NCBI GenBank assembly: GCA_018609195.1
Contig: JAHCSE010000026.1
Span: 1 to 35,935 of the forward strand
Origin: Patescibacteria group bacterium
Lineage (GTDB): Bacteria; Patescibacteriota; Minisyncoccia; Minisyncoccales; RBG-13-36-15
Length of the DNA stretch: 35,935 nucleotides
Direction of reading: 5' to 3'
Position numbers and translations under genes: made by a program. The notes beneath the pieces were generated by a model that saw nothing but the letters and a program-made list of their open reading frames with translations, was not told where the DNA came from and did no database searches. Shown piece after piece: positions 6,783-33,833 of this stretch (position 1 is its first letter; each line of letters starts with the position of its first letter).

Positions 6783-6818
6783 TCAAACAAAAGCTAAAAA
6801 TTTATCGGGGATGTTGTG

Positions 6819-7838
6819 ATGTTTAACTTTGTTGAGTTCTTGATAGAACAGAAGATTCCGTACGTGACATCTGGTCCGAATGTTTCGTCGGGAAATGTGA
6901 ATATAAAATGCCCAATGTGCGGTCCAGCAGATCCATCTCAGCACCTTGGTATTCATATCGCTTCTGGAGTCTGGGGTTGTTGGAGGATAAAGGATCACCG
7001 AGGGCGGCGACCTCATCGGTTGATCATGGCGTTGCTCAACTGTTCTTACATGGAGGCTGACCATTACTTTCGTTCGGAACAAGCATTTATTCCTGATGAT
7101 TTTCTAGAGGAGATAGAAACCTTATTGGAACCAGGAGATGATATCGATGATGGGGAAAAATCTATCTCTAAGGATCGTGTTGAATTACGATTTCTAAATG
7201 GGTTCCGTCGGCTTCGTCATGAACGGTTGGCTCGGCGGTTTATCTGGTATCTATGTGATGGACGTGGTTTCAAACCAAAGGATATTGAATTGTTGGGAAA
7301 ACAGTATGGTCTTCGGTATGTGCTTTCTGGTGTGTGGAAGAACCGCATAATCATCCCGGTGTTCATGGGGGATCAGTTGGTCAATTGGACCGGACGAACC
7401 ATTTCTGATTTGGAAAAGATACGTTACATGTCAGTGAGCCACGAGAAAACCGCAAATCCCAGGGCACCGATGAGTATCAAGAACTGTCTATATCGTCAGT
7501 TGGAATTGATTGAGGAAAGAGGTGATATTCTAGCCATCACTGAGGGACCATTTGACGCGATTCATATGGACTATTTCTTATCTGAGCATGGTATCCGTGC
7601 GACTTGTATTTTTGGCACTGCGTTCAGTGAAGAACAGATTTGGATTATACACGAACTTTCAGATTTTTTCAAACGGGTGTGTATTGTCCTGGATCGTGGG
7701 GCTATGGAAACCGCTATGATACTCCAGACTTCTTTAGCTCCTCTTGAAACTGAGATAATCATGCTACCAAGTGGTATTGAAGATCCTGGTGAAATTACTT
7801 TTCAAAACAAAAACAGTGTGCTTTCGTTATTTGATTGA
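6819..7838 (+). CDS. DNA primase with zinc-binding and TOPRIM domains
   Basis: A 339-residue product. The N-terminus carries CPMC (31-34), then WGCWRIKDH (Cys54, His60), a CHC2-like zinc finger used for template recognition. The TOPRIM core has the glutamate motif AITEGPFDA (239-247) and VCIVLDRGAMETA (287-299). The second TOPRIM motif is usually D-x-D and is LDRGA here, with one aspartate replaced, a variant I believe also occurs in other phage primases. It should make RNA primers for the DnaB-like helicase. ATG 6819 is chosen because GGGG (6807-6810) is well spaced; GTG 6816 is adjacent. Confidence 0.8.
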   Translation: MFNFVEFLIEQKIPYVTSGPNVSSGNVNIKCPMCGPADPSQHLGIHIASGVWGCWRIKDHRGRRPHRLIMALLNCSYMEADHYFRSEQAFIPDDFLEEIETLLEPGDDIDDGEKSISKDRVELRFLNGFRRLRHERLARRFIWYLCDGRGFKPKDIELLGKQYGLRYVLSGVWKNRIIIPVFMGDQLVNWTGRTISDLEKIRYMSVSHEKTANPRAPMSIKNCLYRQLELIEERGDILAITEGPFDAIHMDYFLSEHGIRATCIFGTAFSEEQIWIIHELSDFFKRVCIVLDRGAMETAMILQTSLAPLETEIIMLPSGIEDPGEITFQNKNSVLSLFD

Positions 7839-7994: not shown

Positions 7995-8843
7995 ATGAAA
8001 AATAAGCGGGAGCGTCTTGTATTCGTCCCCAAATTTAATAGGTCCATATCGGGCTGGTCTGTCAAATTTATAAGAAAGAACCTCTGGCGATTACATTGTC
8101 AGGGGGATTTTGATGATATGTTCCAGGAGGCATATCTCATATTTCTTGTTTGTGCTAAGAAATATGGGGGTGGTTGTGCCAAAAATGGGGCGCATTTCAT
8201 GGCGCTCTATAAGAGAGCGTTTATAAATCATTTTACAGATCTCACTAAGAAAGCGTCTAAGGATCGAGAATTATTGATCTCTAATATCAGTGAGCGGGAT
8301 GGCAAAGAGGTAAATTGTTTTGACATGATGCCAGGATCCTTACCGAACGAAGGTGAGATGAGGACGTATATTCGACAGTGTCCAAAACCAATGCAGATGT
8401 TTATTGCTGCAATGGAGTCAGGATTAATTTCACAGACCCTTCAAGCCGATGCCAAGAAAAGAGGGGTATCGGTCAAGCAACAGTATCTTGGAAAGAATCG
8501 CATAGCACGGATTATTTTCCAGGGAGATCCAAAAGATTTGGAGGTGAAAAGACACAATGGGATCCCAAATGATGCCATAATCCAAATGCTAAAGGAAGGT
8601 AATCAACGCCGTCAGGGAACCAAGGCATATGTTCGCTATTCGCTGTACGAAGACGGAATGACGGTTGTGGAGTATATCGCTGCTGGCAAGAAAAGCGGTA
8701 TGTGCACCGTTCGCGGAAACATCCATGCCGATATGAAGCGGGGGAATATTTCTCTTAAGATCCCAAAACAGAGACCAGGATTGACAGCTTTGGATTTGTT
8801 GCGATTTACGAAGCAGCGGTTACGAATAGTTGTTGGTTCCTGA
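7995..8843 (+). CDS. sigma-factor-like protein with a phage C-terminal DNA-binding domain
   Basis: A 282-residue product. Residues about 36-90 (DFDDMFQEAYLIFLVCAKKY, then HFMALYKRAFINHFTDL) resemble sigma-70 region 2: the D-L-x-Q-E-x-x-x-x-L core-binding helix followed by a helix with aromatic residues. No canonical region 4 follows. Residues 192-256 instead form a domain (NDAIIQMLKEGNQ...LYEDGMTVVEYI...DMKRGNISLK) that is closely repeated in the next gene. It may direct host RNA polymerase to phage promoters, or be a sigma-derived replication or transcription protein. A GGTG-rich stretch precedes ATG 7995. Confidence 0.6.
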   Translation: MKNKRERLVFVPKFNRSISGWSVKFIRKNLWRLHCQGDFDDMFQEAYLIFLVCAKKYGGGCAKNGAHFMALYKRAFINHFTDLTKKASKDRELLISNISERDGKEVNCFDMMPGSLPNEGEMRTYIRQCPKPMQMFIAAMESGLISQTLQADAKKRGVSVKQQYLGKNRIARIIFQGDPKDLEVKRHNGIPNDAIIQMLKEGNQRRQGTKAYVRYSLYEDGMTVVEYIAAGKKSGMCTVRGNIHADMKRGNISLKIPKQRPGLTALDLLRFTKQRLRIVVGS

Positions 8844-8920: not shown

Positions 8921-9589
8921 ATGAATAGTAAAAAGATAGAAGACATCCTCTGTGAAGCAACAGGTATTAAGCAGGGAAGGAAAGAGTCCAGAACACACTT
9001 TCTGGAGCGTTTGGCTATTGAGGGGAACAAACTCTCTGATTCGGATTGGGAAAACTTACCAGAGCCCGTTACGGATTGGCTGAACAAAGCCATCGCTGCT
9101 GTAAAGGAAGAGGAGGAAGTTGTGGAGTTTGAAAACGTTAACGAGTCTGATCTTGAACCTGATCCCGAAGAGGATGAGGAAGAGGAAGAGGAAGAGGGTG
9201 AAGAAGAAGAAGACGATGAGCAACCTTCTGAAGAAGAAGACGATGAAGAAGGTGATGAACCTGAAGAGGAAGAAAAGGAGACGAAAGTGGCAACCAAGAA
9301 GTCCAAGAAGAAGGCGACGAGCAGCAAGGCCAAAAAGTCAGCTGAGAAGAAGACAAGTGTTGGCAAGCCTGGTCGTCCTGCTCAATTCTCCAATGATGCG
9401 ATCATTCACTTGAAAGTGAAGGAGAACCCACGCCGACCAGGGACAGCTGCATTCAAGAAGTTCGCTCTCTATAAAGAGGGCATGAAAGTGTCTGCGTACA
9501 TCAAGGCTGGTGGTGGACGCGGAAACATCCGGACGGACGTAAAACGTGGAAATGTTTCCGTTGAGGAGCTGAAGAAGAAAAAGTCCTGA
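8921..9589 (+). CDS. tripartite acidic/basic putative DNA-binding protein
   Basis: A 222-residue product with an excellent ribosome site (GTAGGAGGAAGG). Residues 1-62 are a helical domain (EDILCEATGI, LPEPVTDWLNKA). Residues 63-121 are almost entirely Glu/Asp. Residues 122-148 are Lys-rich (KKSKKKATSSKAKKSAEKK), like a histone tail. Residues 158-217 repeat the C-terminal domain of the upstream sigma-like protein (NDAII, NPRRPGTAAF, LYKEGMKVSAYI, DVKRGNVSVE). It may be a nucleoid-like or DNA-mimic protein. The function is inferred only from composition and the shared domain. Confidence 0.7.
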   Translation: MNSKKIEDILCEATGIKQGRKESRTHFLERLAIEGNKLSDSDWENLPEPVTDWLNKAIAAVKEEEEVVEFENVNESDLEPDPEEDEEEEEEEGEEEEDDEQPSEEEDDEEGDEPEEEEKETKVATKKSKKKATSSKAKKSAEKKTSVGKPGRPAQFSNDAIIHLKVKENPRRPGTAAFKKFALYKEGMKVSAYIKAGGGRGNIRTDVKRGNVSVEELKKKKS

Positions 9590-9601: not shown

Positions 9602-10489
9602 ATGACGTTTAAAAAGAGCCAGCTGAGGCGGTTCTTCTGGTGGATGAAAGAACGGCACGCTATTTATTTACGTCGGAGCATCACTAAGAGACCGTTTCCT
9701 TGGACAAAAGACAAGATACTCCAAACGTATAGGTTCTGCAATGTTTTTCGTGAACTGGACAGGACCACTATCTGGATCCGAGAAAACTGGCGGGAGCCTT
9801 ATGCAGACCATCCAATGCTTTGGTTTGCTATGGCTCTTGCCAGACAGATAAACTTCATCGACACGTTGGCTGAGTTTGGATTTCCAGAGAAGTGGGATCC
9901 TGCTCGGCTGATGAAGTTGATCGAAGACCGACGAGAACGGGGAGAGAAGGCATATACTGGAGCATACATGTTGACTGGAACTCTTGGTGGTCCAAAATCT
10001 GGTCAGACCGCTTTTAAGATACTTGATGTGTTGTACCATGATCCTCCGCCGTTTGTCCAAGGTGGTCTTTCGTCGGTGACGCAAGTTGTGACCTTACAAG
10101 AAGCGTGGAACCAGTTTCGTGGTCGGCCAGGGTTTGGTTCGTTTATAGCCTATGAGGTTGTGACGGATTTAAGACACACGCGGTATCTCCGAGGCGCAAC
10201 GGACATCATGACTTGGGCGAATCCAGGTCCTGGGGCTATCCGTGGCCTTCATAGAGTTGCTGGTCGTCGTATTAAGGGAAGGTATCGCCGCGATAGAGAA
10301 CCATTACCACGTGACCAAGCCATCGATGAAATGCGAAAGCTTCTTTCATTGAGTGGTAAGTTTCTTCCAGATGATTTTCCTGTTCTTGAAATGCGAGAAA
10401 TCGAACATTCGCTTTGTGAACATGATAAGTATGAACGTGTTCGATTAGGAGAAGGAAAAATGAGAGCAAGATTTTATCCACCATCGTAA
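9602..10489 (+). CDS. HMUDK-helical/aGPT-Pplase superfamily protein, putative thymine-hypermodification enzyme
   Basis: A 295-residue product. The N-terminal signature is FFWWMKERHAIYLRR (residues 11-25), then PFPWTKDKILQTYRFCNVF and RELDRTT (32-56). The C-terminal half has GFGSFIAYEVVTDL and ANPGPGAIRGLHRVAGR, the pattern of an HhH DNA-glycosylase-derived fold. This matches the superfamily that includes the helical domain of 5-hydroxymethyl-dU DNA kinase and the alpha-glutamyl/putrescinyl-thymine pyrophosphorylases (amino acid:DNA transferases) of phages with hypermodified thymine. No P-loop kinase is fused, so it resembles the transferase or stand-alone helical form. ATG 9602 follows TGAGG; the upstream TTG at 9599 is adjacent. 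Confidence 0.7.
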   Translation: MTFKKSQLRRFFWWMKERHAIYLRRSITKRPFPWTKDKILQTYRFCNVFRELDRTTIWIRENWREPYADHPMLWFAMALARQINFIDTLAEFGFPEKWDPARLMKLIEDRRERGEKAYTGAYMLTGTLGGPKSGQTAFKILDVLYHDPPPFVQGGLSSVTQVVTLQEAWNQFRGRPGFGSFIAYEVVTDLRHTRYLRGATDIMTWANPGPGAIRGLHRVAGRRIKGRYRRDREPLPRDQAIDEMRKLLSLSGKFLPDDFPVLEMREIEHSLCEHDKYERVRLGEGKMRARFYPPS

Positions 10490-10540
10490 TTTAAGCGTAA
10501 GTTTTTATCGTATAGTGGTGTAGGTACGGAGAAAAAGTCA

Positions 10541-10585
10541 ATGGAATTAACGTCGGCATCGTTGTCATTTTGTACATATCACTAG
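10541..10585 (+). CDS. 14-residue leader peptide ORF
   Basis: ATG 10541 has a GGAG nine bases upstream (10528-10531) and encodes MELTSASLSFCTYH, ending at TAG 10583-10585. The frame runs through the whole left arm of the hairpin at 10567-10605 and stops in its loop. A translating ribosome would therefore open the hairpin and free the next gene's start codon. Its role as a regulatory leader is inferred from this geometry. Confidence 0.45.
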   Translation: MELTSASLSFCTYH

Positions 10586-10605
10586 GAGGGTGATATGTAC
10601 AAAAT
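10567..10605 (+). promoter_or_regulatory. 16-bp perfect hairpin controlling a start codon
   Basis: Bases 10567-10582 and 10590-10605 are perfect reverse complements, separated by the 7-base loop TAGGAGG (10583-10589). The loop is the Shine-Dalgarno of the following 41-aa gene, and that gene's ATG (10595-10597) is inside the right stem. There is no T-tract, so it is not a terminator. It should block the start codon while displaying the ribosome site. As DNA it could also bind a dimeric protein. Confidence 0.7.
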
Positions 10606-10720
10606 AAGAAACTGGTTTTTGGATGCACCGTGGCCAATCGGTGCGGTTATTTTTCTTACGCCATTTGTTTTGCTCGGTCTAGGCATCGGGGTCGGGCTGG
10701 ACATCGGTTGCGCTTTGTAG
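10595..10720 (+). CDS. small membrane protein (41 aa)
   Basis: The start lies in the hairpin stem with AGGAGGG upstream. The product MYKIRNWFLDAPW begins with a short basic segment. One transmembrane helix follows (about residues 15-37: IGAVIFLTPFVLLGLGIGVG), then a short LDIGCAL end. Positive residues before the helix suggest an N-in orientation. Function unknown. Its expression seems tightly controlled at translation. Confidence 0.6.
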   Translation: MYKIRNWFLDAPWPIGAVIFLTPFVLLGLGIGVGLDIGCAL

Positions 10721-10739
10721 GGAGGATGAAGACGTACTC

Positions 10740-11438
10740 GTGGTTGTAGAAGTCATCAAATCAAAAGTTAGTTGGCCTCGGTGCCCTAACCGGCCATCTT
10801 TTGATATCTACCACCGTCCGGAGACGACGGATCTGGATCTGGTGAAGGCAATACCAAATGAGAATGAAAAGTTAGGTCTGAACTCTGATGACATCGTATT
10901 GGATCTTGGCGCACATATTGGTGGGTTTTCAAAGTGGGTATTGGTATGTGGAGTCAAGTCTGTCATTTGTGTAGAACCATATCTTCCTAACTTCAGATTG
11001 CTCAGAAGAAATTTAGGGAAGGAGTTTTCAGCAACGTTAAATTATGCTGCGTGTGTCCAAGGATGGGGGAGCGGTAAAGAGTGTAAGCTGTATGTTGCCG
11101 GTGGGCGTAGTGAAGGGCGACACAGCCTTATTGCGAAGAATAACCGACCTTATAGGACGGTTCCATCAGTGGGCTTTCTGGATCTTCTGTACCAGCATAA
11201 ACCATCGGTCGTAAAAATAGATATAGAGGGAAGCGAATTCCTACTTGAAAGTGATCTTTCGTCTCTTCCTTTGGATACCAAGAAGTTGTCGATTGAATTT
11301 CACAAGATGAATAAGGATTCTTTAAAGCGTTCCTTAGATATTGTGAAATCGTTGGTGATTCAGGGATTTTCAACGGAACGTGAACCAAGATTTACAAAAC
11401 AGTGGCGTAATACCGTTGGTGTTTGGGTGCGACAATGA
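10740..11438 (+). CDS. FkbM-family methyltransferase
   Basis: A 232-residue product. Motif I is VLDLGAHIGGFSKWV (residues about 53-67), strand 2 is VICVEPYLPNFRLLRRN, and the late VVKIDIEGSEFLLE is the diagnostic FkbM motif. The family O-methylates sugars and natural products, so with GT61 and GT-A enzymes nearby it may methylate a glycan or a DNA-linked sugar. The GTG start follows GGAGG by 14 bases, which is long. No better start exists. The end overlaps the acyl-carrier-like gene by ATGA. Confidence 0.8.
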   Translation: MVVEVIKSKVSWPRCPNRPSFDIYHRPETTDLDLVKAIPNENEKLGLNSDDIVLDLGAHIGGFSKWVLVCGVKSVICVEPYLPNFRLLRRNLGKEFSATLNYAACVQGWGSGKECKLYVAGGRSEGRHSLIAKNNRPYRTVPSVGFLDLLYQHKPSVVKIDIEGSEFLLESDLSSLPLDTKKLSIEFHKMNKDSLKRSLDIVKSLVIQGFSTEREPRFTKQWRNTVGVWVRQ

Positions 11439-11716
11439 CGCGGAATGAACTCACAGAAAAACTTCGTCGAATTGTTTCTATACATCTTGGTGTTCCTGAA
11501 CACATGGTTATAGAAACCTCCGAAATGGAAGACGATCTTGGTGCCGACGATCTTGATATGATAGAGCTTATCATGGATTGTGAACTTGTTTTCAATATAG
11601 AGATCCCAGAAGAAGAATTTGGTGATGAATGGAAAACGTTCAAGGATCTAGTCGATGTGATCGCTTCAAAACAGGTTGGTAGGGATCCTGTTATTAAAGT
11701 AGATCAGAAGGAATAA
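11435..11716 (+). CDS. acyl-carrier-protein-like protein lacking the carrier serine
   Basis: A 93-residue acidic four-helix protein with ACP hallmarks: LTEKLRRIVSIHLGV, the loop MEDDLGADDLDMIELIM, then LVFNIEIPEEEFGDEWKTFKDLVDVI. In genuine ACPs the motif is D-S-L, where the serine carries 4'-phosphopantetheine. Here it is D38-D39-L40 (GAC GAT CTT), so the prosthetic group cannot be attached at the normal position. It may be a scaffold or a protein that presents a substrate differently. It sits between a methyltransferase and a radical SAM gene, both translationally close. Confidence 0.8.
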   Translation: MTRNELTEKLRRIVSIHLGVPEHMVIETSEMEDDLGADDLDMIELIMDCELVFNIEIPEEEFGDEWKTFKDLVDVIASKQVGRDPVIKVDQKE

Positions 11717-11721
11717 ACGTG

Positions 11722-12705
11722 ATGGGAACCTATCATCAAGAACGTCCAAACACAATCAAGGTCGAATTGACCGAAGGATGCAATCTATACTGCCAGATGT
11801 GTGGTCTTCGTGGGATCCGTGAAAAGCCAGGTGGTCCATACCTGTTCATGGGTCTAGACATGGCGAGAGTAATATCTCGACGAATATCAAAGGCTGGATG
11901 GAACAGCAAGATTGAATTCACGATGCGAGGTGAACCTTTACTGAACCCAGATACGGCCAGGATCATCAGAATCTTCCGAAAGGATCTCCCAAATACACAT
12001 ATCATGGTGACGAGCAACGGGATCCCTCTGCTACGGAAACCTGGTGTCTTCAAAAATCTGGATCGGTTATTTCATTGTGGTCTGAACATCTTGGCGATGG
12101 ATTGTTATGAAGCATCCAAAAAGACTGAGGCACAAGTTCGGCAGTATAGAGACGTTCCCGTGACCGACTATCCTGGTGGCCCATCACCGTATAGTAAGGT
12201 CAAAGCGTCTGTGCAACGTATCATCTTGATTGAAGATTTCGAGAAGGCAGCAATTGAGGCGTCGAGACTTGGAAACAAAATCGTCAATAACCACTGCGGT
12301 GCTGGAGCACCACAACTTGAGGAACCCTTGGCCAAGAGATGTGCCAGACCGTTTAGAGAATTGGTTTTTCGGTTCGATGGTAATGTTCTTCTGTGTTGCA
12401 ACTCTTGGCGTGGTTTATATAAGTGTGGGGACGTTGAGGATTACGAATCAGTTGACGATCTTTGGAACAATGCTGCGTTCATGGCTGCCCGTCGTAAGCT
12501 ATATCACAAGGATCGGGACTTTGGTGAGTGTGCTGGTTGTGACAATACATCGTTCCGTGTCGGGTTGCTCCCAGACTATAGAGGGCAGAAGAAGTTGAGG
12601 AAACCAAATCTTGAAGACGAGAAAGCAATTCACCGCGCCATGAAAGGTGGTCCTTGGACAGAGCCAGTTCTCCGTCCTTGGGAGAGTGAGGAAAAGGAAG
12701 ATTAG
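11722..12705 (+). CDS. radical SAM/SPASM-type enzyme
   Basis: A 327-residue product. EGCNLYCQMC near residue 20 supplies the Cx3Cx2C that binds the 4Fe-4S cluster and SAM. FTMRGEPLLNPD is the usual GGEPLL-like strand. The C-terminal part (CARPFRELVFRFDG, VLLCCNSWRG, YKCGDVEDY, FGECAGCDN) supplies seven cysteines of an auxiliary-cluster SPASM-like domain. Such enzymes modify peptides, sugars or cofactors by radical chemistry; related radical SAM enzymes act in phage thymine hypermodification. The substrate here is unknown. ATG 11722 follows AGAAGGA; GTG 11719 is adjacent. Confidence 0.8.
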   Translation: MGTYHQERPNTIKVELTEGCNLYCQMCGLRGIREKPGGPYLFMGLDMARVISRRISKAGWNSKIEFTMRGEPLLNPDTARIIRIFRKDLPNTHIMVTSNGIPLLRKPGVFKNLDRLFHCGLNILAMDCYEASKKTEAQVRQYRDVPVTDYPGGPSPYSKVKASVQRIILIEDFEKAAIEASRLGNKIVNNHCGAGAPQLEEPLAKRCARPFRELVFRFDGNVLLCCNSWRGLYKCGDVEDYESVDDLWNNAAFMAARRKLYHKDRDFGECAGCDNTSFRVGLLPDYRGQKKLRKPNLEDEKAIHRAMKGGPWTEPVLRPWESEEKED

Positions 12706-13782
12706 ATGCGTCTAAAAGTAGGTTATATGTCTGATTCGTTTTTCTTGAAATATTCAAAATATGGTGAATCATGTATAGATTGTTTTCCTCCGTTAAATTT
12801 GGAAGATGAACCTGATGCGCATGCTTTCACCGACTCATTGGTTTCACATCATTATTCGTTAAATCATCGCGCCGCCGTGCCTTTTGTTTATGAGATTCCC
12901 AACGCTACTGTAGCAACGACACAAAACTTAGTTTTTGATGACGAGTATTTTTATCTGGACTCGTACCATAACGAGGGATTGATGAAGACGATTGTTCCGG
13001 TGCCTCCGGTATTTGGTCCGTTGGAGAACGGTACGATCCATTGCGATATTTCTACGTTAGACCAAAGCGAGTACGGAGGCGCTGCGATTATGTTTATAGG
13101 GCCTCACTCTTCAAATTATCACCATTGGTTGTTGGAAGTTTTACCTCGTCTATGGATCTTGGATGAGTTCCCTGAATACAAAGACCTGCCGTTGATAATG
13201 TCGAATATGGATCGCTCTTTCCAAGGAGAGACATTGATGAAGGTCTGGAAAGTACCGATGCGTGGTACAGTCAGTCATGACGGAGTGTTAAGAGTTGGTA
13301 AGTTAATTTTCTCATCCATGATGGCACCCGGTGGTCATTCCAGAGTACAACTTGATTGGCTCCGTTCTAGGTTCCTTCCTAGGACTGGGAAACTGGAACG
13401 GATGATCTATGTCTCACGCCGGGATGAAGTGAACCGTCGGAGTGCTTCAAACGAAGATGAACTGATTAGGAAGATACGAGAGGTGGGTTTTGAGGATGTT
13501 GTGTTGACTGGGATGCCTCATGAAGATCAGGTTGAATTATTTGTTGATGCCAAGATTGTGATGGGTATCCATGGTGCAGGAATCACCAATCATATATTTG
13601 CTCCGGAGGGTGCGCACGTAATAGAATTCCATCCATATGACTATACAAATCGAGTATATTTTTTCACAAGCAATTTGCTAAACCAAACGTATCAATTTGT
13701 TATTTGTGAGCGCGACCTGTCTGGTAATCTATGCTTGCCAATAGACAGGATATTGAAATGCATAGAACGAGTGTCCAAATAG
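12706..13782 (+). CDS. GT61-family glycosyltransferase
   Basis: A 358-residue product beginning directly after the radical SAM stop. The conserved block SSNYHHWLLEVLPRLWIL, the later MIYVSRRDEVNRRSASNED, and VMGIHGAGITNHIFAP with HVIEFHP are characteristic of the GT61/DUF563 family (xylosyl- and N-acetylglucosaminyltransferase relatives). It would transfer a sugar from a nucleotide donor; the acceptor is unknown. It could be host surface glycan, a phage protein or modified DNA. Confidence 0.8.
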   Translation: MRLKVGYMSDSFFLKYSKYGESCIDCFPPLNLEDEPDAHAFTDSLVSHHYSLNHRAAVPFVYEIPNATVATTQNLVFDDEYFYLDSYHNEGLMKTIVPVPPVFGPLENGTIHCDISTLDQSEYGGAAIMFIGPHSSNYHHWLLEVLPRLWILDEFPEYKDLPLIMSNMDRSFQGETLMKVWKVPMRGTVSHDGVLRVGKLIFSSMMAPGGHSRVQLDWLRSRFLPRTGKLERMIYVSRRDEVNRRSASNEDELIRKIREVGFEDVVLTGMPHEDQVELFVDAKIVMGIHGAGITNHIFAPEGAHVIEFHPYDYTNRVYFFTSNLLNQTYQFVICERDLSGNLCLPIDRILKCIERVSK

Positions 13783-13796
13783 AAAAGGAGACGATG

Positions 13797-14168
13797 ATGT
13801 CAGAGAAAGTCAATTACGAAGACATGACGAAAGAGGAGATTGAGCAGCACGTGCTCGATGCTCATGGTGAAAACCTTAACACGAGCAGCATGACGAAAGA
13901 CCAAATGATCGCTGAAGCGGTTGTGTTGGACGAAGCAGCAGAGGCTGGATCTGACGCCGAAACTGATCCGGATGATGCTTCTGAAGAGTCTTCCGACGAA
14001 GGTGGCGAAAACGGAGAGGAAGAGGATGATACGGAAGGTGAAGAATCGGAAGCTGAACCCGAAACTGAAGATGAAGGTGACACTGATAAGCCTGAAGATG
14101 AACCAGGCGATGATTCCGCAAGCGGACCGAGTGATGCAGATCCAAAAGGAAGATCCTTGGGAGGATAA
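13797..14168 (+). CDS. acidic protein with a SAP/HeH-like N-terminus
   Basis: A 123-residue product. ATG 13797 lies six bases after AGGAG. Residues about 8-45 (EDMTKEEIEQHVLDAHGENL, then MTKDQMIAEAVVL) resemble the short SAP/HeH helix-extended loop-helix and the repeats in the SSB tail of this phage. Residues 46-115 are nearly all Asp/Glu/Ser/Gly and likely disordered. It ends GRSLGG, just before a terminator. It might bind or mimic DNA. Function unknown. Confidence 0.65.
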   Translation: MSEKVNYEDMTKEEIEQHVLDAHGENLNTSSMTKDQMIAEAVVLDEAAEAGSDAETDPDDASEESSDEGGENGEEEDDTEGEESEAEPETEDEGDTDKPEDEPGDDSASGPSDADPKGRSLGG

Positions 14169-14188
14169 CACGCCCCCGCTTAAACTTG

Positions 14189-14229
14189 GAAGTGTGGATT
14201 ATAGAAGTCCACACTTCTTCTTTTCTTTG
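14189..14229 (+). terminator. rho-independent terminator
   Basis: GAAGTGTGGA (14189-14198) and TCCACACTTC (14208-14217) form a perfect 10-bp stem with a 9-base loop, followed by the T-rich TTCTTTTCTTTG. It closes the transcription unit ending with the acidic protein and lies only 14 bases before the glycosyltransferase start, so it could also act as an attenuator. Confidence 0.8.
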
Positions 14230-14242
14230 TTGGGATTTTGGA

Positions 14243-15013
14243 GTGAGTCTGAAAATATTCGTTCACACTGTTGGTCGTATAGACATACAGTACACAATCG
14301 CGCGGTTTCCAGAAGATGTCTTGGAACAAACGTGGTTGGTGGTTCAAGAGACGGAGGCGGATGAATATGAATATCCTCGGTTGATGGTGTTGCCTTCCGA
14401 GATCACAATGCTCAGTCCCACTCGGCAGTATATTCTTGAAAATGCAGGATCTGAGAAGATCGTTATGATGGATGACGATCTATATTTTTACAGACGGAAG
14501 GGAAAGAATGATTGGCACCTTCATTACTGTACCCCAGAAGATTTTGCCGATATGTTTTCCATTATTGAAGATTGGTTGGATGATTTTGTTCATTGTGGGA
14601 TCAGTTCTAGAGAAGGCAATAATCATGTAGAGACATTACACAAAGACATCGGTCGTATGCAACGAGTGCTTGCGTATAATGTCCCCAAGGTCTTGAAAGT
14701 TGGGGCGAGATTTGACAGGATTGATTGCAAGCAAGATTTTGACATGACACTTCAGTTGCTTCGTGAGGGGTTTCCGAATCGTATCTCTTATGAATTTGCT
14801 CAGGGTCAGTCTAGAGGATCACAATTTGAAGGGGGATGTGCGTTATACCGTGATAAGGAAATGATGGAGCGCTGTGCTCATGAACTTCATGATTTTCACC
14901 CAGACTTTGTGACCGTTGTGGAAAAGAAGACAAAGAGCGCATGGAAGGATTTTGATAACGTGCGAGTAGATGTCCGCATCGGATGGAAGAAGGCATTTGA
15001 AAGCAGTCAATAA
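14243..15013 (+). CDS. TET-associated-type glycosyltransferase (TAGT), putative DNA-base glycosyltransferase
   Basis: A 256-residue GT-A enzyme from GTG 14243. The start is chosen because the first strand (LKIFVHTVGR) begins there. SPTRQYILENA (58-68) and the metal-binding VMMDDDLYF (74-82) match the TAGT family. Further hallmarks are GISSREGNN, the FDRI and QDFDMTLQLLREG block (157-177), FEGGCALYR (195-203) and HPDFVTVVEKKTK (219-231). TAGTs occur in phages beside TET/JBP dioxygenases or other base-modifying enzymes and are predicted to glycosylate hydroxymethylated bases in DNA. No TET-like dioxygenase is seen here, so the acceptor could be hydroxymethyluracil. Confidence 0.75.
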   Translation: MSLKIFVHTVGRIDIQYTIARFPEDVLEQTWLVVQETEADEYEYPRLMVLPSEITMLSPTRQYILENAGSEKIVMMDDDLYFYRRKGKNDWHLHYCTPEDFADMFSIIEDWLDDFVHCGISSREGNNHVETLHKDIGRMQRVLAYNVPKVLKVGARFDRIDCKQDFDMTLQLLREGFPNRISYEFAQGQSRGSQFEGGCALYRDKEMMERCAHELHDFHPDFVTVVEKKTKSAWKDFDNVRVDVRIGWKKAFESSQ

Positions 15014-15090
15014 TGGTTGATAGATTTATAAATATTGAGGAAACGCCTAAGAAACAGTATAGGGTCTATAGGGGTGAGGTATTATGCTGA
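15013..15090 (+). CDS. possible 25-residue peptide
   Basis: ATG 15013 overlaps the previous TAA by one base and encodes MVDRFINIEETPKKQYRVYR...C, ending in TGA that overlaps the next small gene. It has no ribosome site beyond coupling and no recognisable motif. It may only provide coupling to the next start. Confidence 0.3.
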   Translation: MVDRFINIEETPKKQYRVYRGEVLC

Positions 15091-15218
15091 GGGCTAAGAG
15101 GCGGCGGATCATCAATAATGCGCAGAGAGTGGTGTTTACGACTTTTCTCATATTCTTTTCTGTTACAGGTGTTCTCTGGTGGATGGACTTTGTCTTTGAA
15201 TTGGTAAAGGGAATATAG
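15084..15218 (+). CDS. small membrane protein (44 aa)
   Basis: ATG 15084 follows GGGGTGAGG. The product starts with a strongly basic segment (MLRAKRRRIINNAQR). One transmembrane helix follows (residues about 16-37: VVFTTFLIFFSVTGVLWW), then a short MDFVFELVKGI tail. Orientation is predicted N-in. Function unknown. Confidence 0.55.
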   Translation: MLRAKRRRIINNAQRVVFTTFLIFFSVTGVLWWMDFVFELVKGI

Positions 15219-15229
15219 GAAGCTTGATA

Positions 15230-15256
15230 TTGACATCTTGGGTTATGTGGTATGAG
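15230..15256 (+). promoter_or_regulatory. possible sigma-70 promoter ahead of the thymidylate-synthase homologue
   Basis: A perfect TTGACA (15230-15235) is followed after 15 bases by TATGAG (15251-15256), four of six matches to TATAAT. The spacing is short of the preferred 17, so activity is uncertain. It lies just upstream of the ribosome site of the gene at 15271. Confidence 0.3.
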
Positions 15257-15270
15257 AAAGGGAGATTGAT

Positions 15271-16374
15271 ATGCATGTAATTAAAGTCCGTAATGTTCAC
15301 CAAGCACTTCCTGAAGGGTTGAGAATGCTTGAGATTGATGGAGTCAAGAGATCGTCAAGAGCTGGAGATGTTTTGGAGGTTCCTTATCCAGTAGCGACAG
15401 TGTTTACCCATCCGAGGGAGCGGGTGATTTTTCACACACAACGGGATGCCAATCCTACATTTCATTTGTTTGAATCGATTTGGATGTTGGCTGGCCGGAA
15501 CGATTTAGCATGGATTGAGCCGTACCTGGGCCGCATGCGCGAGTTTTCAGATGATGGGCTTACCCTAAGAGCCTCCTATGGCCACCGCTCGCGTGCGACG
15601 TTTACACTGGTCGACCAGGATACCCAAGATCAGTTCGTAGTTTTATCCAGACTCTTGAGGCAGCATCCTGATACAAGGAGAGCAGTCATGCAGTTCTGGG
15701 ATTGTGAACTGGATCTTTTCGAGACTGAAGATACGGAGCTTGGGATCACATCCAAGGATGTTCCATGTAATTTAGTAGCTCATTTTTATCGGCGAGATGA
15801 TCGACTTGATATGGTGATCTTCTGTCGATCAAATGACGCAATCTGGGGTGCGTATGGGACAAATGCGGTTCACTTCTCCATGTTTCAGGAATACCTCGCT
15901 GCGATGGTTGGTATAGAGGTTGGAACGTATACGCAGATAAGCAGTAGCTTTCATGCGTATGTTGATGTGTTTGAGAAGTGCCGACCAATCATTGATGGTG
16001 CAAGGGATGGGTTTCGCCGAGGACCATTTTGTCCATATACAGCTGGAATTGTGCGACCATATCCTCTGATAGAAACAAATGATTCTGCTGGTGTTAAGAT
16101 GTTTGATGATGATCTGAGTTTGTTCATGTCCCCAAGTCCTGCCGTACCAAGTTTTAAGACAAAGTTCTTTTCAAACGTGGTTTGGCCAATTCACCAGGCT
16201 CATGCTATTTGGAAAAACAAGGATAATCCACATAGATTTCAATTGGCAAAAAAGAGAATGTGCCACTGCGATGCGATGGACTGGCAAAAGGCAGGATTGG
16301 AATGGTTGGAACGTAGGAGGATTGTATATGAGAGGGCCAGGGACGATGGACCATCTTATGAAGAACAAGGATAG
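15271..16374 (+). CDS. thymidylate synthase/dUMP hydroxymethylase homologue
   Basis: A 367-residue product with GGGAG ahead of ATG 15271. FHLFESIWMLAGRNDLAWI (64-82) and YGHRSR (103-108) precede the catalytic DVPCN (Cys166). CRSNDAIWGAYGTNAVHFS (185-203) follows, then SFHAYVDVF (227-235). This is the thymidylate-synthase fold. Asn198 (GTN) aligns with the Asn that selects uracil in thymidylate synthase, whereas dCMP hydroxymethylases have Asp, so dUMP is the likely substrate. The product may be dTMP or 5-hydroxymethyl-dUMP. The motif cannot separate these; the DNA-modification neighbours favour hydroxymethylation. Confidence 0.8.
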   Translation: MHVIKVRNVHQALPEGLRMLEIDGVKRSSRAGDVLEVPYPVATVFTHPRERVIFHTQRDANPTFHLFESIWMLAGRNDLAWIEPYLGRMREFSDDGLTLRASYGHRSRATFTLVDQDTQDQFVVLSRLLRQHPDTRRAVMQFWDCELDLFETEDTELGITSKDVPCNLVAHFYRRDDRLDMVIFCRSNDAIWGAYGTNAVHFSMFQEYLAAMVGIEVGTYTQISSSFHAYVDVFEKCRPIIDGARDGFRRGPFCPYTAGIVRPYPLIETNDSAGVKMFDDDLSLFMSPSPAVPSFKTKFFSNVVWPIHQAHAIWKNKDNPHRFQLAKKRMCHCDAMDWQKAGLEWLERRRIVYERARDDGPSYEEQG

Positions 16375-16903
16375 CGTATTCGAACGGATCCGGTTGCTTC
16401 GGAAGGGTGGTAATGTCAAACGGTATCATACACTGTCAATAATTGGTGAGAACACGGTTTCGTCTCATAGTTGGAACGTGGTGGTCTTGTTGTTTGTTCT
16501 TCATCCGTCTCCTTCAAAGAATCTTCTTATGGCTGCGTTGTTTCATGATGTCGCCGAGGGTTTCGTCGGGGACCCTCCGGCTTCGATGCTTGATGAGTTT
16601 CCGAAGTTAAAGAAAGCATATAAGACTGCCGAACATGTTGTTTTGGATGGACTCGGTCTTGGTGCTGTATATTCATTGTTGACAGCGGAGGAGAAAGTCT
16701 GGTTGAAAATGTGTGATCGACTGGAAGGGGTTCTCTTCTCTATTGAGCAACGGTTGATGGGAAATACCCAGATTAACGACGTGATACATAATGGACTCGA
16801 ACTTCTTCTACATGAACAACTATTGACAGGAGAATTGAGGGATGTACTCAATATGGTACGCGTCAATCCATATGTGTTTTTTGAAAAACTGAAGAAAATT
16901 TAG
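16328..16903 (+). CDS. HD-domain nucleotidase (YfbR-like)
   Basis: A 191-residue product whose start overlaps the previous gene by 47 bases; it is chosen because AGGAGG (16315-16320) sits seven bases upstream. The metal ligands are visible: His34 (YHTLS), His47 (SSHSW), His73-Asp74 (ALFHDVAEGFVGDPP) and a late Asp in KMCDRLEG. This is the arrangement of YfbR-type deoxynucleoside-5'-monophosphatases. In phages such enzymes trim nucleotide pools, for example removing the canonical nucleotide that competes with a modified one. Position next to the thymidylate-synthase homologue supports a pool-cleansing role, by inference. Confidence 0.8.
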   Translation: MRGPGTMDHLMKNKDSVFERIRLLRKGGNVKRYHTLSIIGENTVSSHSWNVVVLLFVLHPSPSKNLLMAALFHDVAEGFVGDPPASMLDEFPKLKKAYKTAEHVVLDGLGLGAVYSLLTAEEKVWLKMCDRLEGVLFSIEQRLMGNTQINDVIHNGLELLLHEQLLTGELRDVLNMVRVNPYVFFEKLKKI

Positions 16904-16905
16904 AT

Positions 16906-17367
16906 ATGACAATGATGAAAAATAGAGATTTACAAAATCTGTTTGAACCGGCGAGTGCGGATGCATTTCCATATCATGCTCATCTGATGGAGATTGCTTT
17001 GAATGATGTTGAACTTCTTCTGGATAAAGATGTGCAGTACAAGGGATCATGTTTCAGGCGCGGTGGTTCGGGGCTGTTCCATATGTTCGCGAGGAAGTGG
17101 GATCGTATTGAGGCAATGGTTGAAGATTGTGGATACGATATTTTTGAAGCGGTAGAGAACGACACCCGGATGGAGACGGTCTTGGATGATGTTGCAGACC
17201 TCCGACGGTATCTTCTTCTAGCTGAGGCTTTTCTTCTTTGTAAGCGGTTAGAGGAGCTTGTAGGGGATAACCCTATACCCTCGTCTCAAAACTCGTCTGC
17301 GACGCTTGTAGGGGGTTCAAAAGCCCCTTCTGGTCCTGGTCTAGATGAACCAGTTCGAAAAACCTGA
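16906..17367 (+). CDS. nucleotide modification associated domain 1 (NMAD1/DUF1599)-like protein
   Basis: A 153-residue product. The core DKDVQYKGSCFRRGG (about 41-55), GLFHMFARKWDRIE (57-70) and DDVADLRRYLLLAEAFLL resembles DUF1599, named nucleotide modification associated domain 1 because of its genomic links to base-modification enzymes. Its biochemical activity is not established. Residues about 120-153 (DNPIPSSQNSSATLVGG...) are low-complexity and are encoded by a repeat element also found at 30.5 kb, so the natural C-terminus may have been extended. It starts two bases after the HD gene stop. Confidence 0.6.
   Translation: MTMMKNRDLQNLFEPASADAFPYHAHLMEIALNDVELLLDKDVQYKGSCFRRGGSGLFHMFARKWDRIEAMVEDCGYDIFEAVENDTRMETVLDDVADLRRYLLLAEAFLLCKRLEELVGDNPIPSSQNSSATLVGGSKAPSGPGLDEPVRKT
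17256..17328 (+). repeat. repeat element inside the NMAD1 gene tail
   Basis: Contains two 11-base direct repeats GCTTGTAGGGG (17256-17266 and 17304-17314). Each opens a small hairpin: TAGGG/CCCTA with loop GATAA, and AGGGG/CCCCT with a 9-base loop. Bases 17269-17292 between them are a perfect 24-base reverse complement of 30530-30553. The element provides the unusual C-terminal tail of the gene it sits in. Confidence 0.65.
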
Positions 17368-18477: not shown

Positions 18478-18551
18478 CTAACAAAATTATTAGGAAGGAG
18501 TTTTAAGAGGGTGACTAACAAAATTGTTAGGAAGGAGTTTTAAGAGGGTGA
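18478..18551 (+). repeat. tandem duplication of the polymerase translation-initiation region
   Basis: Two 37-base copies (18478-18514 and 18515-18551) differ at one base. Each contains a hairpin CTAACA/T(A or G)TTAG, a Shine-Dalgarno AGGAAGGAG and a GTG. The first GTG (18511) opens a 10-codon ORF (MTNKIVRKEF, stop 18541-18543). The second (18548) starts the polymerase. The duplication thus creates a leader ORF whose stop is four bases before the real start. Confidence 0.75.
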
Positions 18552-21100
18552 CCCTTTTCTTCGCTTCAGGTCTTGACGATGAAGTTCGGCCAAAGGGTCG
18601 TCCGTCTGTTGAGACGCTCCACAAGATGGAATGTAAGGCCTGTCCTTTGGACAAGGCTGACGTGAACTCTCCAAAGATAGAACCGCATGGTGCAAAGAAC
18701 CCGGATATCTATATACTTGGAGAAGGTCCTGGGGAAGGCGAAGATAAAAAGGGAGAGTTCTTTGTTGGCCGGTCTGGTAAGTTCTTGCGGGGATCTTTCC
18801 CAAAGGAAATACGGAAGAAATTGAGGTACAATAACTGTGTTCGGACACGACCAGCAAGCACCAAGCTAGGGGAGACGAATAAAAATAGGGCACCCACCTA
18901 TTTTGAACAGGAATGTTGTCGTCCATCGGTTGTCAGAGATATAGAGAAGGCGAAGCCGAAGGTTGTTGTTGGCTTGGGGAATGTTCCACTTCAGTGGGCA
19001 ACCAAAGGGGAGAAGATATCTCTTTGGCGAGGACGTTTTGTACCTGTTAAGATCGGATCCCATGTTTGTTGGTTCTATCCTGTCTATCACCCGGCTGGTT
19101 TTTTGAGAAGGCGGAAAGAGATCCGTGGCCGGGTCGTGTTCAGTGATGAAGAGCAAATCTATGAGCGGGACATTGCCTGGCTTCTTGAGATTATCGATGA
19201 TTTGCCAACTCCAGAAGTCGAAGATTTGGATCGAGTCTACGATGGGGTGGAGACTGTTCTTGGGACCAATGGATCTAAGGATCTTCGGAAGGTCAAGAAG
19301 CAATTGGAGTACTTCGCCAAGAAACCAATAGTTGGACTGGATTATGAGACCAACATGTTGCGGCCATATGGAACGGGAGCGAAGGTCCTCTCGGTTGCAG
19401 TTGCTACAGAGATTGAGGCTTTCGCCTTCCCATTTGATCATCCACAGGCGGGGTGGACCGACGAAGAAAGGAAGGAGATATATCAGTTGTGGCTACGATT
19501 CCTCAAGAAGGCAAAGTGTCGTAAGGTTGCACACAGTCTTCCGTTCGAACTGGAATGGACAGCATACTTCTATGGGGATAAGCTTGTACGTGTTGGACGA
19601 TGGGATTGTACATTGGCGCAAGCGTTTATTCTTGATGAGCGGAGAGGTATGCTTAGTTTAGATACACTCTGTATGATCCGATTTGGATTTTGGTTGAAAT
19701 CGATTTCTCCAATAGACCGTTCAAATTTGGAGAATGAACCACTTGATGCGGTGCTTCTATATAATGCACTTGACAGTAAGTACGAGTGTAAACTGTTTAT
19801 TCTCCAAGACAAAATACTTGAGAATGAAGAGTTGTTGGAAGCGTACGAAGATCAGGTTCGTCGACCGGCCACTGTGGCACTGACGCAAAAGTTTGGAGTT
19901 TGTATTGATCAGGATGAGAACCGTCGGCTCGGTAAACAGTTGGAGAAGCAGTTGAGAGGGATCGAAGCTGACTTAGCTGATCTTGACGTTGTTCATGAAT
20001 TTGAGGATAAATTCCATCCGTTCAATGCTGGTTCTCCTCCTGATGTTGATAAAATGTTATCCAGTATCTTGGGGATTCATGATTTAGAGGATACAAAGGA
20101 AGAGACAATACAGGAAATTGATCATCCAGTGATACAGCTAATCGTGCAGTTCCGGAAGATCTCCCGTCGGAAATCGACCAACGTCGACAGCATCAGTGAA
20201 GACGGTGGAAAGTATTTGTGGCCAGATGGTCTTCTTCATCCAACACTTAATCCAAATGGTGCTCGGACTGGTCGAATGTCATCAAATTCTCCAAACGAGC
20301 AGAATTTCGAGAAGCGAGATCCGGAAGGGAGGAAGGTCCGGTCTCAGTTTAACACTCCAAAAGGATTCGTCTTTTTCTCGGTGGACTATAAACAATTGGA
20401 AACGTCTGTCATTGGGATGGCGTCTAAAGATAAGATTCTTTGCGATCTTCTAAACCAGCGAGTTGATATCCATCAGTTATGGACGGAACGGGTTGCTCAT
20501 GAGTATCCACGACGGATCGGTGGGAAGAGAATGATTAAAGACAAAGAAGTGATGGCCGAGTTTCGGTATGATATAAAGAACCAGTTTGTGTTCCCGCTTT
20601 TCTTTGGTGCCAGTCCTCATTCAGTGAGTGGATATTTGAATATTCCAATCCAAAACATTGGTCCAGTAGTTGATGATTTTTGGGATATGTTCTCTGGGGT
20701 CAAGGATTGGCAAGAGAGGGAATTGGATAAGTACGAGGAGTATGGGTACGTTGAGTGTCTGACTGGACGCCGCCGGCGGGGACCTCTTGCTGGTAATAAG
20801 ATAATCAACAGTCCCATACAAGGGACAGCAGCGGATATAGCAATAGACGCGATGAACCGACTGTCCAAACATTACACAGATACTGGTATTTCACAATATC
20901 AAGCAAGACTATATATCCATGATGAACTAGATTTCTACTTGCCTGAATCGTCCCTGGAGGATGATGTTGAATTTATAATTAAGGAAATGGTTACTTCACC
21001 GTATAGTTTTATAAACGTGCCCGTTGCAGTGGATGCGTCAATAGGCCCGAATTGGTATGAACTTGAAAGTATCGGATCTTTCTATTCGGATGATTTTTGA
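18548..21100 (+). CDS. family A DNA polymerase with fused N-terminal uracil-DNA glycosylase domain
   Basis: An 850-residue product. Residues 27-200 are a family-4-like UDG: CKAC (29-32), LGEGPGEGEDKKGEFFVGRSG (57-77, partly quoted), NNCVRTRP, ECC and YHPAGFLR (180-187), so both catalytic motifs and four candidate Fe-S cysteines survive. Residues 255-420 are the 3'-5' exonuclease: LDYET (264-268), VAHSLPFELEW, RWDCTLA and NALDSKYE. The polymerase has TGRMSSNSPNEQNF, motif A FFSVDYKQLET (Asp613), motif B RYDIKNQFVFPLFFG, SPIQGTAADI and motif C YIHDELDF (791-793). GTG 18548 has AAGGAG 11 bases upstream. Confidence 0.85.
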   Translation: MTLFFASGLDDEVRPKGRPSVETLHKMECKACPLDKADVNSPKIEPHGAKNPDIYILGEGPGEGEDKKGEFFVGRSGKFLRGSFPKEIRKKLRYNNCVRTRPASTKLGETNKNRAPTYFEQECCRPSVVRDIEKAKPKVVVGLGNVPLQWATKGEKISLWRGRFVPVKIGSHVCWFYPVYHPAGFLRRRKEIRGRVVFSDEEQIYERDIAWLLEIIDDLPTPEVEDLDRVYDGVETVLGTNGSKDLRKVKKQLEYFAKKPIVGLDYETNMLRPYGTGAKVLSVAVATEIEAFAFPFDHPQAGWTDEERKEIYQLWLRFLKKAKCRKVAHSLPFELEWTAYFYGDKLVRVGRWDCTLAQAFILDERRGMLSLDTLCMIRFGFWLKSISPIDRSNLENEPLDAVLLYNALDSKYECKLFILQDKILENEELLEAYEDQVRRPATVALTQKFGVCIDQDENRRLGKQLEKQLRGIEADLADLDVVHEFEDKFHPFNAGSPPDVDKMLSSILGIHDLEDTKEETIQEIDHPVIQLIVQFRKISRRKSTNVDSISEDGGKYLWPDGLLHPTLNPNGARTGRMSSNSPNEQNFEKRDPEGRKVRSQFNTPKGFVFFSVDYKQLETSVIGMASKDKILCDLLNQRVDIHQLWTERVAHEYPRRIGGKRMIKDKEVMAEFRYDIKNQFVFPLFFGASPHSVSGYLNIPIQNIGPVVDDFWDMFSGVKDWQERELDKYEEYGYVECLTGRRRRGPLAGNKIINSPIQGTAADIAIDAMNRLSKHYTDTGISQYQARLYIHDELDFYLPESSLEDDVEFIIKEMVTSPYSFINVPVAVDASIGPNWYELESIGSFYSDDF

Positions 21101-33571: not shown

Positions 33572-33802
33572 ATGATGTATCTTCCGACATATTCTAAGTG
33601 GCATACGGTGTCTCGAATGGATGACAAGACCCCGTTGTTCATACATGCCGGATGGTGGAAGAGATTGATATGCATTCATGAAGAGCTTGTGGAGTATCTG
33701 AGGATTGATCATCGGTCGGGAACTGGATCAGATACCGATTATTATGAGGGGAAGGTATGCAGTTCATGTGGTCGTATTCTTGAAGAAAACCGGCTTAGAT
33801 AG
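33572..33802 (+). CDS. small protein with a C-terminal CxxC (76 aa)
   Basis: A very good ribosome site (GAGGAAGGAGGAG) precedes ATG 33572. The product ends KVCSSCGRILEENR, half a zinc ribbon, and contains LFIHAGWWKRLICIH. Two more cysteine or histidine ligands may come from that segment. Function unknown. Confidence 0.55.
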   Translation: MMYLPTYSKWHTVSRMDDKTPLFIHAGWWKRLICIHEELVEYLRIDHRSGTGSDTDYYEGKVCSSCGRILEENRLR

Positions 33803-33833
33803 AGGAGAAGGAAAAAAAAAGGAGGAAATAAAA

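Follow-up and report, generated by a model that had tools for sequence, protein, structure and literature searches.

What does a phage make with a block of genes in which a thymidylate-synthase homologue, glycosyltransferases and a radical S-adenosylmethionine (SAM) enzyme stand side by side? The question is raised by a contig of 35,935 nucleotides, JAHCSE010000026.1 (positions 1 to 35,935 of the forward strand; assembly GCA_018609195.1, filed under Patescibacteria group bacterium), which we call the window, and by the cassette at positions 9602–17367 within it, for which a hypermodified thymine had been predicted from the letters alone. We find that the cassette is best read from its sequence, at a probability of about 0.62, as equipping the DNA of the phage with a glycosylated analogue of thymine: 5-hydroxymethyluracil (hmU) would be made, incorporated and glycosylated, and the sugar would then be reworked by the radical SAM enzyme. 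What computation shows directly is which genes are present, which residues they keep, how their products are predicted to fold, how often they recur together and that two of them are once fused. No description of this cassette was found in the titles and abstracts listed by literature searches that reached few subscription papers and in part gave the best 15 of 16, 28 or 1,829 papers.

Gene content and the proposed route

Searches with hidden Markov models recover, at the places originally proposed, an HMUDK_hel protein, an FkbM methyltransferase, an acyl carrier protein (ACP)-like protein, a radical SAM/SPASM enzyme, a GT61 enzyme, a TAGT, a synthase-like protein and a YfbR-like HD phosphohydrolase (Table 1). 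The earlier concern that such searches might place these genes in unrelated families is thus answered for the families just named and not for one further label, NMAD1: none of 15 family members of the small protein at 16906–17367 matches any Pfam Nmad model at E≤1, and we reject that identity. Two labels hold in part, since the HMUDK-helical protein matches its family and has no kinase domain, and the ACP-like protein, discussed below, matches PF00550 and is no ordinary acyl carrier.

Table 1 Features of the window with their family matches (E-values). Starts were refined from the sequence for the ACP-like, radical SAM, TAGT (probable) and HD (probable) genes.
Feature	Position	Strand	Basis
HMUDK_hel protein, 295 aa, without kinase domain; proposed hmU-DNA binding/base-flipping subunit	9602..10489	+	PF18723 1.4e-48
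FkbM-family methyltransferase; possible sugar O-methylation	10740..11438	+	Methyltransf_21 PF05050 1.9e-5; TIGR01444 7.7e-13
ACP-like protein, Asp at the phosphopantetheine Ser position	11435..11716	+	PF00550 6.7e-7
BtrN-like radical SAM enzyme, C-terminal domain of the twitch/SPASM type	11722..12705	+	Radical_SAM 2.9e-9; SPASM 1.7e-8
GT61 glycosyltransferase, lineage-specific as far as seen	12706..13782	+	PF04577 2.8e-24
Acidic protein, no family match	13794..14168	+	In-frame ATG
Hairpin with T-rich tail, terminator-like, between the acidic protein gene and TAGT	14188..14218	+	13 pairs, longest of 9 listed
TAGT glycosyltransferase (GTG start inferred; reading frame opens 14186)	14243..15013	+	PF20691 7.1e-17, 62.4 bits against a cut-off of 27.5; phrog_842 3.9e-42
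Thymidylate-synthase-like protein, predicted dUMP hydroxymethylase	15271..16374	+	Thymidylat_synt 4.5e-13; phrog_5131 4.8e-107
YfbR-like HD phosphohydrolase (start inferred; reading frame opens 16202)	16346..16903	+	PF12917 1.4e-7; phrog_6047 1.9e-37
Small conserved protein, without Nmad match	16906..17367	+	Alignment, Pfam and PHROG searches
DNA polymerase A with N-terminal uracil-DNA-glycosylase (UDG)-like domain, possibly a related neighbour	18524..21100	+	PF00476 5e-58; PF03167 1e-17

In the route that we propose, the synthase-like protein would convert dUMP to 5-hydroxymethyl-dUMP, which would enter DNA via the phage polymerase, with the HD protein probably trimming the competing nucleotide pool. 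HMUDK_hel, a helical protein with a predicted fold like that of base-flipping DNA glycosylases, would then present hmU in DNA, and TAGT would put a sugar on the hydroxymethyl group, a glycosyltransferase seemingly taking the place of the 5-hydroxymethyldeoxyuridine (5-hmdU) kinase and amino acid transferase of phages of the M6/YuA type. In a fourth step the BtrN-like radical SAM enzyme would modify the sugar, either attached to DNA or still on its donor, the likeliest change being an oxidation or another alteration at a single ring carbon. In this phage FkbM may finally add a methyl group and GT61, less surely, a second sugar.

The first step is the firmest, and we consider it very probable from sequence that the cassette makes hmU. 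The synthase-like protein carries N198, the uracil-type Asn on which the original prediction had relied, together with C166 and N167, and thus differs from the T-even-type, cytosine-selecting form with Asp. In an alignment of 76 rows, from which only exact and contained duplicates were removed and of which two are incomplete, the uracil-selecting position is Asn in 73 of the 74 readable members and Asp in one (L115; L numbers denote our loci), and directly behind the catalytic Cys 71 members have Asn and three have Thr, at a position taken by His in the printed thymidylate synthases. Against solved structures the family profile matches CMP 5-hydroxymethylase at 1.2e-30 and thymidylate synthases at 2.6e-20, and the family Asn aligns with Asn of the latter and with Asp of the former. 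Among cultured phages the nearest proteins are of the Yuavirus type, at 46% identity; the relatives listed are mostly annotated as thymidylate synthase or left unannotated, and some are annotated as deoxyuridylate hydroxymethyltransferase. The protein is most likely a dUMP hydroxymethylase, and its Asn, its hydroxymethylase-type profile and its glycosyltransferase context support the earlier proposal that hmU is made here and then glycosylated. The Asp-bearing synthase homologue belongs to a TAGT locus (L115:7025-7744), and TAGTs near-identical to that of L115 are present in L118-L120 and L128.

That the sugar is added by TAGT is likely. A search seeded with TAGT only gives 61 loci in 42 clusters, 37 of which contain the synthase, 32 HMUDK_hel and 30 the HD protein, with HMUDK_hel no more than 100 nt from TAGT in 22 clusters and no more than 1.5 kb in 28. 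These neighbourhood counts, like those below, use profiles built from one to six seeds and mostly iterated (those for GT61, ACP and methyltransferase-24 remained single-sequence) and, wherever whole contigs are not mentioned, refer to flanks of at most 10 kb on either side (at most 8 kb in the TAGT scan); clusters group loci with more than 70% shared 4-mers, about 90% identity by estimate, at an uncalibrated cut. The acidic motif KIVMMDDDL of TAGT is invariant in the four sequences compared. A sequence search for solved relatives of HMUDK_hel, TAGT and the GT-B-like proteins met below returned no credible match. In LuckyBarnes, an isolated phage with Brevibacterium iodinum as its laboratory host, HMUDK_hel, two TAGTs and a synthase with the Asn stand in a row, and the hmU-sugar part of the route is therefore open to laboratory study.

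A radical SAM enzyme beside glycosyltransferases

The radical SAM enzyme is a true member of such cassettes. A search seeded only with the pair of radical SAM proteins from the window phage and L004, both of which are counted in the results, yields 63 loci in 40 clusters (L069 was left out because no radical SAM reading frame scored there); the synthase is present in 28 clusters, HMUDK_hel in 25, TAGT in 23 and at least one of these three in 38. Of the 40 clusters, 31 have a glycosyltransferase (TAGT, GT-B-like or GT61) no more than 100 nt from the radical SAM gene and 34 have one no more than 1 kb away; for TAGT alone the corresponding counts are 19 and 21, and for the GT-B-like protein alone 11 and 14. 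In 18 radical SAM loci the GT-B-like protein occurs without TAGT in the stretches examined. In L043 TAGT and the radical SAM enzyme are naturally fused in one frame of 581 aa (TAGT 3-253, radical SAM 267-581). Chance clustering is rejected on this recurrence and proximity over 40 clusters, and the placement of the enzyme in the same pathway, as originally proposed, is borne out by its recurrence in many phages, the fusion and the fold. It keeps steady company with a glycosyltransferase and not with any single supplier of the hydroxymethyl group. This speaks for the sugar as its target, an assignment that we hold somewhat more probable than not.

In 58 members of this radical SAM family C20, C24 and C27 of the radical SAM CxxxCxxC motif and C207, C225, C226, C270 and C273 of the C-terminal domain are invariant, and the best solved match of the profile is BtrN (2.6e-7), spanning both domains. 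A structure predicted from 48 sequences (pLDDT 95) fits BtrN with Z 25.6, a root mean square deviation (rmsd) of 2.4 and 237 aligned residues at 21% identity, and the next other protein is the peptide-acting ChlB, at Z 15.7. Foldseek matches below BtrN include peptide-acting enzymes as well as DesII and SpeY, which we take to be enzymes acting on sugars or cyclitols. We favour as its chemistry an oxidation, or a change akin to it, at a single carbon of the sugar, which might take place either on DNA or on the donor. BtrN is a 2-deoxy-scyllo-inosamine dehydrogenase of antibiotic biosynthesis, with a free aminocyclitol as its substrate; it shares the radical SAM and twitch fold of our model, whereas the window enzyme is phage-borne and its family is paired, and once fused, with a DNA glycosyltransferase family. 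Cultured phages offer only one weak match to this enzyme (20%), and a scan of genome contigs with the pair gives 62 pattern matches and no relatives.

Several of these loci contain further genes. L050 and L051 each have two radical SAM and two TAGT genes in a row, with a B12-binding radical SAM protein upstream in L050. In L032 a protein at 6401-7453 that resembles both cytidylyltransferases and mannose-6-phosphate isomerases of the cupin type lies within a cassette of HMUDK_hel, GT-B-like, radical SAM and synthase genes, and could possibly provide a dedicated sugar-nucleotide supply. The family of the small protein at 16906-17367 is present in 16 of the 40 radical SAM clusters, with an invariant RGG and an ARKWDR stretch; it has no consistent Pfam family, and some members have weak PHROG matches.

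A second possible source of the hydroxymethyl group appears in loci with TET/JBP oxygenases. Tet_JBP (PF12851) is found in 9 of 51 records (50 loci and one further record), namely eight contigs in six clusters with both the radical SAM enzyme and TAGT (L058, L059, L060, L062-L066) and L095, which has TAGT without the radical SAM enzyme; the bin of the window has no match. Five of the six clusters have TAGT and the radical SAM gene as neighbours, and in the remaining one (L065/L066) 6 kb separates them. These systems share TAGT and the radical SAM enzyme with the window and differ in their source: scans of 17 whole-contig records found neither synthase nor HMUDK_hel on the nine TET contigs, the controls L002 and LuckyBarnes being positive, whereas the bin of the window gives no Tet_JBP match and the predicted supplier of the hydroxymethyl group there is the synthase homologue. 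None of the 40 radical SAM clusters has both synthase and TET. A C5-methylase (PF00145) was found in none of 21 records, TET contigs included, and in 10 of 14 control genomes; action of the TET-linked loci on cytosine is thereby weakened, and the base there may be thymine. The predicted product, glycosylated hmU in DNA, is of the same class as base J of kinetoplastids, with the difference that J is made by JBP oxygenases and JGT (PMC6449724) and that hmU in the window phage would come from the nucleotide pool.

HMUDK_hel and competing explanations

The role of HMUDK_hel is the least secure step of the shared route, and we favour a flipping subunit by a narrow margin over other roles. The family has 19 invariant columns in 50 aligned sequences, window included, and the structure predicted from these 50 (pLDDT 93) has as its best fold match PUGT, a glycinyltransferase acting on 5-phosphomethyldeoxyuridine (5-PmdU), at Z 11.9, rmsd 3.7 and 218 aligned residues; queuine-salvage enzymes and DNA glycosylases follow at Z 9.6 to 6.5 among the matches listed, and Foldseek returns no match below E 0.001. 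Base flipping, given the modest margin and the caution due to helical proteins, can only be put forward as a conjecture from the model. The protein is uncommon among phages at large (the window query recovers it at E≤1e-5 from 111 phage records in a set of 50,697), and its presence by profile in 25 of 40 radical SAM-seeded clusters is far beyond chance, the two figures coming from different collections and methods and conveying scale only. With PUGT as the nearest solved fold, HMUDK_hel might itself transfer a non-sugar group, TAGT then acting on some other substrate; we regard this as unlikely, because HMUDK_hel accompanies whichever partner occurs, kinase (YuA, Sonora, CN2, RHph_I65 and, weakly, Epa43) or TAGT (LuckyBarnes), and lies so often within 100 nt of TAGT.

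Slightly less likely still is that FkbM, the ACP-like protein, the radical SAM enzyme and GT61 are cell-surface glycan cargo inserted in an ordinary hmU-TAGT cassette. FkbM and GT61 families also work in glycan pathways, GT61 and the ACP-like protein were seen in the window phage only, and a terminator-like hairpin follows the block. Set against this are the recurrence of the radical SAM enzyme beside glycosyltransferases and HMUDK_hel or synthase in divergent phages, its fusion to TAGT, and the presence of FkbM in three other cassettes (L004, L073 and L108; a scan of 48 IMG/VR contigs finds it in 4, and one of these is the window phage itself). By a home-made profile FkbM also lies some 5 kb from the TAGT of L115 and of L119. 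For GT61 and the ACP-like protein the cargo reading may hold. For the glycosylated-thymine reading itself, we give FkbM an even chance of belonging to the pathway and consider membership of GT61 rather doubtful.

A pathway of the M6/ViI kind with an undetected kinase, in which phosphorylation of hmU is followed by attachment of an amino acid or some other nucleophile and the radical SAM enzyme rearranges the product as in M6, is improbable. For M6, ViI and PhiW-14, the hmU of the DNA is believed first to receive a phosphate from a kinase and then to be elaborated (PMC6449724), and activation by routes of the ViI, M6 or SP10 type had been the background of the original prediction. HMUDK_hel is indeed common to the kinase phages, with identities of up to about 45%, and YuA also has a radical SAM gene, gp12. 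Yet neither the P-loop 5-hmdU DNA kinase (PF18748) nor the amino acid:DNA transferase (ADDT, PF18724) is found in any of 50 whole-contig records (48 IMG/VR contigs, the window's bin and LuckyBarnes), both being found in YuA, the control and 51st record; the FkbM and GT61 contig scans likewise covered 50 loci and one further record. Among ten named phage records, moreover, the kinase scores above cut-off in YuA, Sonora, CN2 and RHph_I65 and below it in Epa43, and TAGT matches LuckyBarnes, MW202897 and DLP_6, none of the five kinase-matched cultured phages being among them; SH-Ab 15599 and PhiW-14 match neither. By Pfam, YuA has ADDT gp10, a pyridoxal-phosphate (PLP) enzyme gp11, radical SAM gp12 (below cut-off), P-loop HMUDK kinase gp13, HMUDK_hel gp14, Nmad5 gp15 and YfbR-like HD gp18, with synthase gp17 by annotation; gp12, with a bit score of -0.5, is rejected as a member of our radical SAM family. 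What the Yuavirus M6/YuA cluster shares with the window, within one neighbourhood, is a synthase of the hydroxymethylase type (46%), an HMUDK_hel protein (about 44%) and a YfbR/HD protein; it differs in having kinase, ADDT, PLP enzyme, Nmad5 and another radical SAM enzyme where the window phage has TAGT and a BtrN-like one.

That the cassette instead makes 5-hydroxymethylcytosine (hmC), with TAGT acting as in T-even phages, is very improbable, for although the glucosyl-hmC of T2/T6 receives a second glucose from TAGT (PMC13216743), the related locus L115 has an Asp-form synthase and two Yuavirus-type relatives are annotated as thymidylate synthase/dCMP hydroxymethylase, the window synthase and nearly all of its family carry Asn, other Yuavirus-type relatives are annotated as deoxyuridylate hydroxymethyltransferase, M6 DNA has an hmU-derived base (PMC6449724) and HMUDK_hel accompanies the synthase. 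The T2/T6 TAGT (beta-glucosyl-HMC-alpha-glucosyltransferase) is a glycosyltransferase of the same PF20691/PHROG 842 family, but it acts on glucosyl-hmC (PMC13216743), whereas the window TAGT stands beside an Asn-type (uracil) synthase.

A number of observations weigh against a glycosylated and radically altered thymine, to which we nevertheless hold. The reactions, the order of the steps and the identity of the sugar are all inferred. The radical SAM gene is present in only 8 of the 42 TAGT-seeded clusters and is therefore optional, and six radical SAM clusters have neither synthase nor TET; five of these (L015, L016, L050, L057 and L061) also lack HMUDK_hel over the whole contig, and L056 has an HMUDK_hel fragment at the contig end. 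By fold, peptide-acting radical SAM enzymes rank high, well below BtrN, and the PUGT match of HMUDK_hel lies under the caution level of about 13 for helical proteins. The GT-B-like label is weak (Glyco_trans_1_2 matches 5 of 19 members, at best 2.7e-5). Several Yuavirus-type synthases are annotated as thymidylate synthase, two of them also as dCMP hydroxymethylase, and PF18748 can miss kinases, PhiW-14, which is thought to use one (PMC6449724), having no match, as also SH-Ab 15599. GT61 was not found outside the window phage among 51 records, nor the ACP-like protein among 133 loci. The latter is rejected as an ordinary acyl carrier, since in both printed alignments its Asp falls on the phosphopantetheine-accepting Ser of solved ACPs, which deprives it of the normal means of bearing an acyl group. 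The terminator-like hairpin parts TAGT from the genes upstream, and the block may thus not be one transcript; shuffled sequence gives a mean of 7.2 such hairpin sites (sd 2.4), close to the observed number. The 50 records include close relatives, and the IMG/VR contigs are probably in part fragments, so that absence from them is no proof; likewise, a family missing from the aligner's lists was not treated as excluded.

Phage context and significance

The window is a phage contig, number 26 in a bin of 39 contigs and 854 kb. It encodes, by Pfam, a DnaB-type helicase, a UDG-polymerase A fusion and a clamp-loader-type protein, and, as read from the translations, primase-, RecA- and SbcCD-like proteins. 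IMGVR_UViG_3300032105_000035 is 99.97% identical to it over the 20,825 bases compared, and a contig of a second sample 99.89% over 9,898 bases; L002 and the window's bin are the same phage. The adjacent proteins at 7995-8843 and 8921-9589 have a common C-terminal stretch (47% over 64 aa), which also occurs upstream of HMUDK_hel in L004 and L005, and 33705-34568 has a sub-threshold ATP-grasp (R2K_3) match. The polymerase of L004 aligns over its full length at 44% with the UDG-polymerase A of the window, the UDG-like domain of which may sense modified or uracil-bearing templates.

Between the window phage and L004, identity is 66% for the radical SAM enzyme, 63% for HMUDK_hel and 61% for TAGT, and 45% for the synthase, 38% for the HD protein and 29% for FkbM (part only); five replication proteins (DnaB-like, primase-like, polymerase, clamp loader and RecA-like) are at 36-49%. 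Judged from this one comparison of sequences, the radical SAM enzyme, HMUDK_hel and TAGT may travel or be constrained together. We tentatively suggest, at somewhat less than even odds, that HMUDK_hel is a general hmU-DNA base-flipping subunit paired with a kinase or a glycosyltransferase, and that a portable glycosyltransferase-radical SAM module performs radical chemistry on a DNA-linked sugar.

Glucosylated 5-hmdU was unreported in phage as of 2019, by the available part of PMC6449724, and TAGT without an alpha- or beta-glucosyltransferase occurs in 288 of 753 phage genomes and was flagged in 2026 as marking possible new transferases (PMC13216743; further literature, PMC13390438, PMC11946847, PMC12783734, PMC10853773). 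Such solitary TAGTs gain from the present cassette a concrete candidate substrate and partner proteins. If the tentative suggestion on HMUDK_hel and the portable module is true, DNA would contain a class of thymines with keto-, deoxy- or epimerised sugars, for which either a hydroxymethylase or a TET/JBP oxygenase supplies the hydroxymethyl group. Should the radical SAM enzyme act on the sugar, sugar radical chemistry of the antibiotic type would operate on DNA, probably giving phages more routes of escape from restriction.

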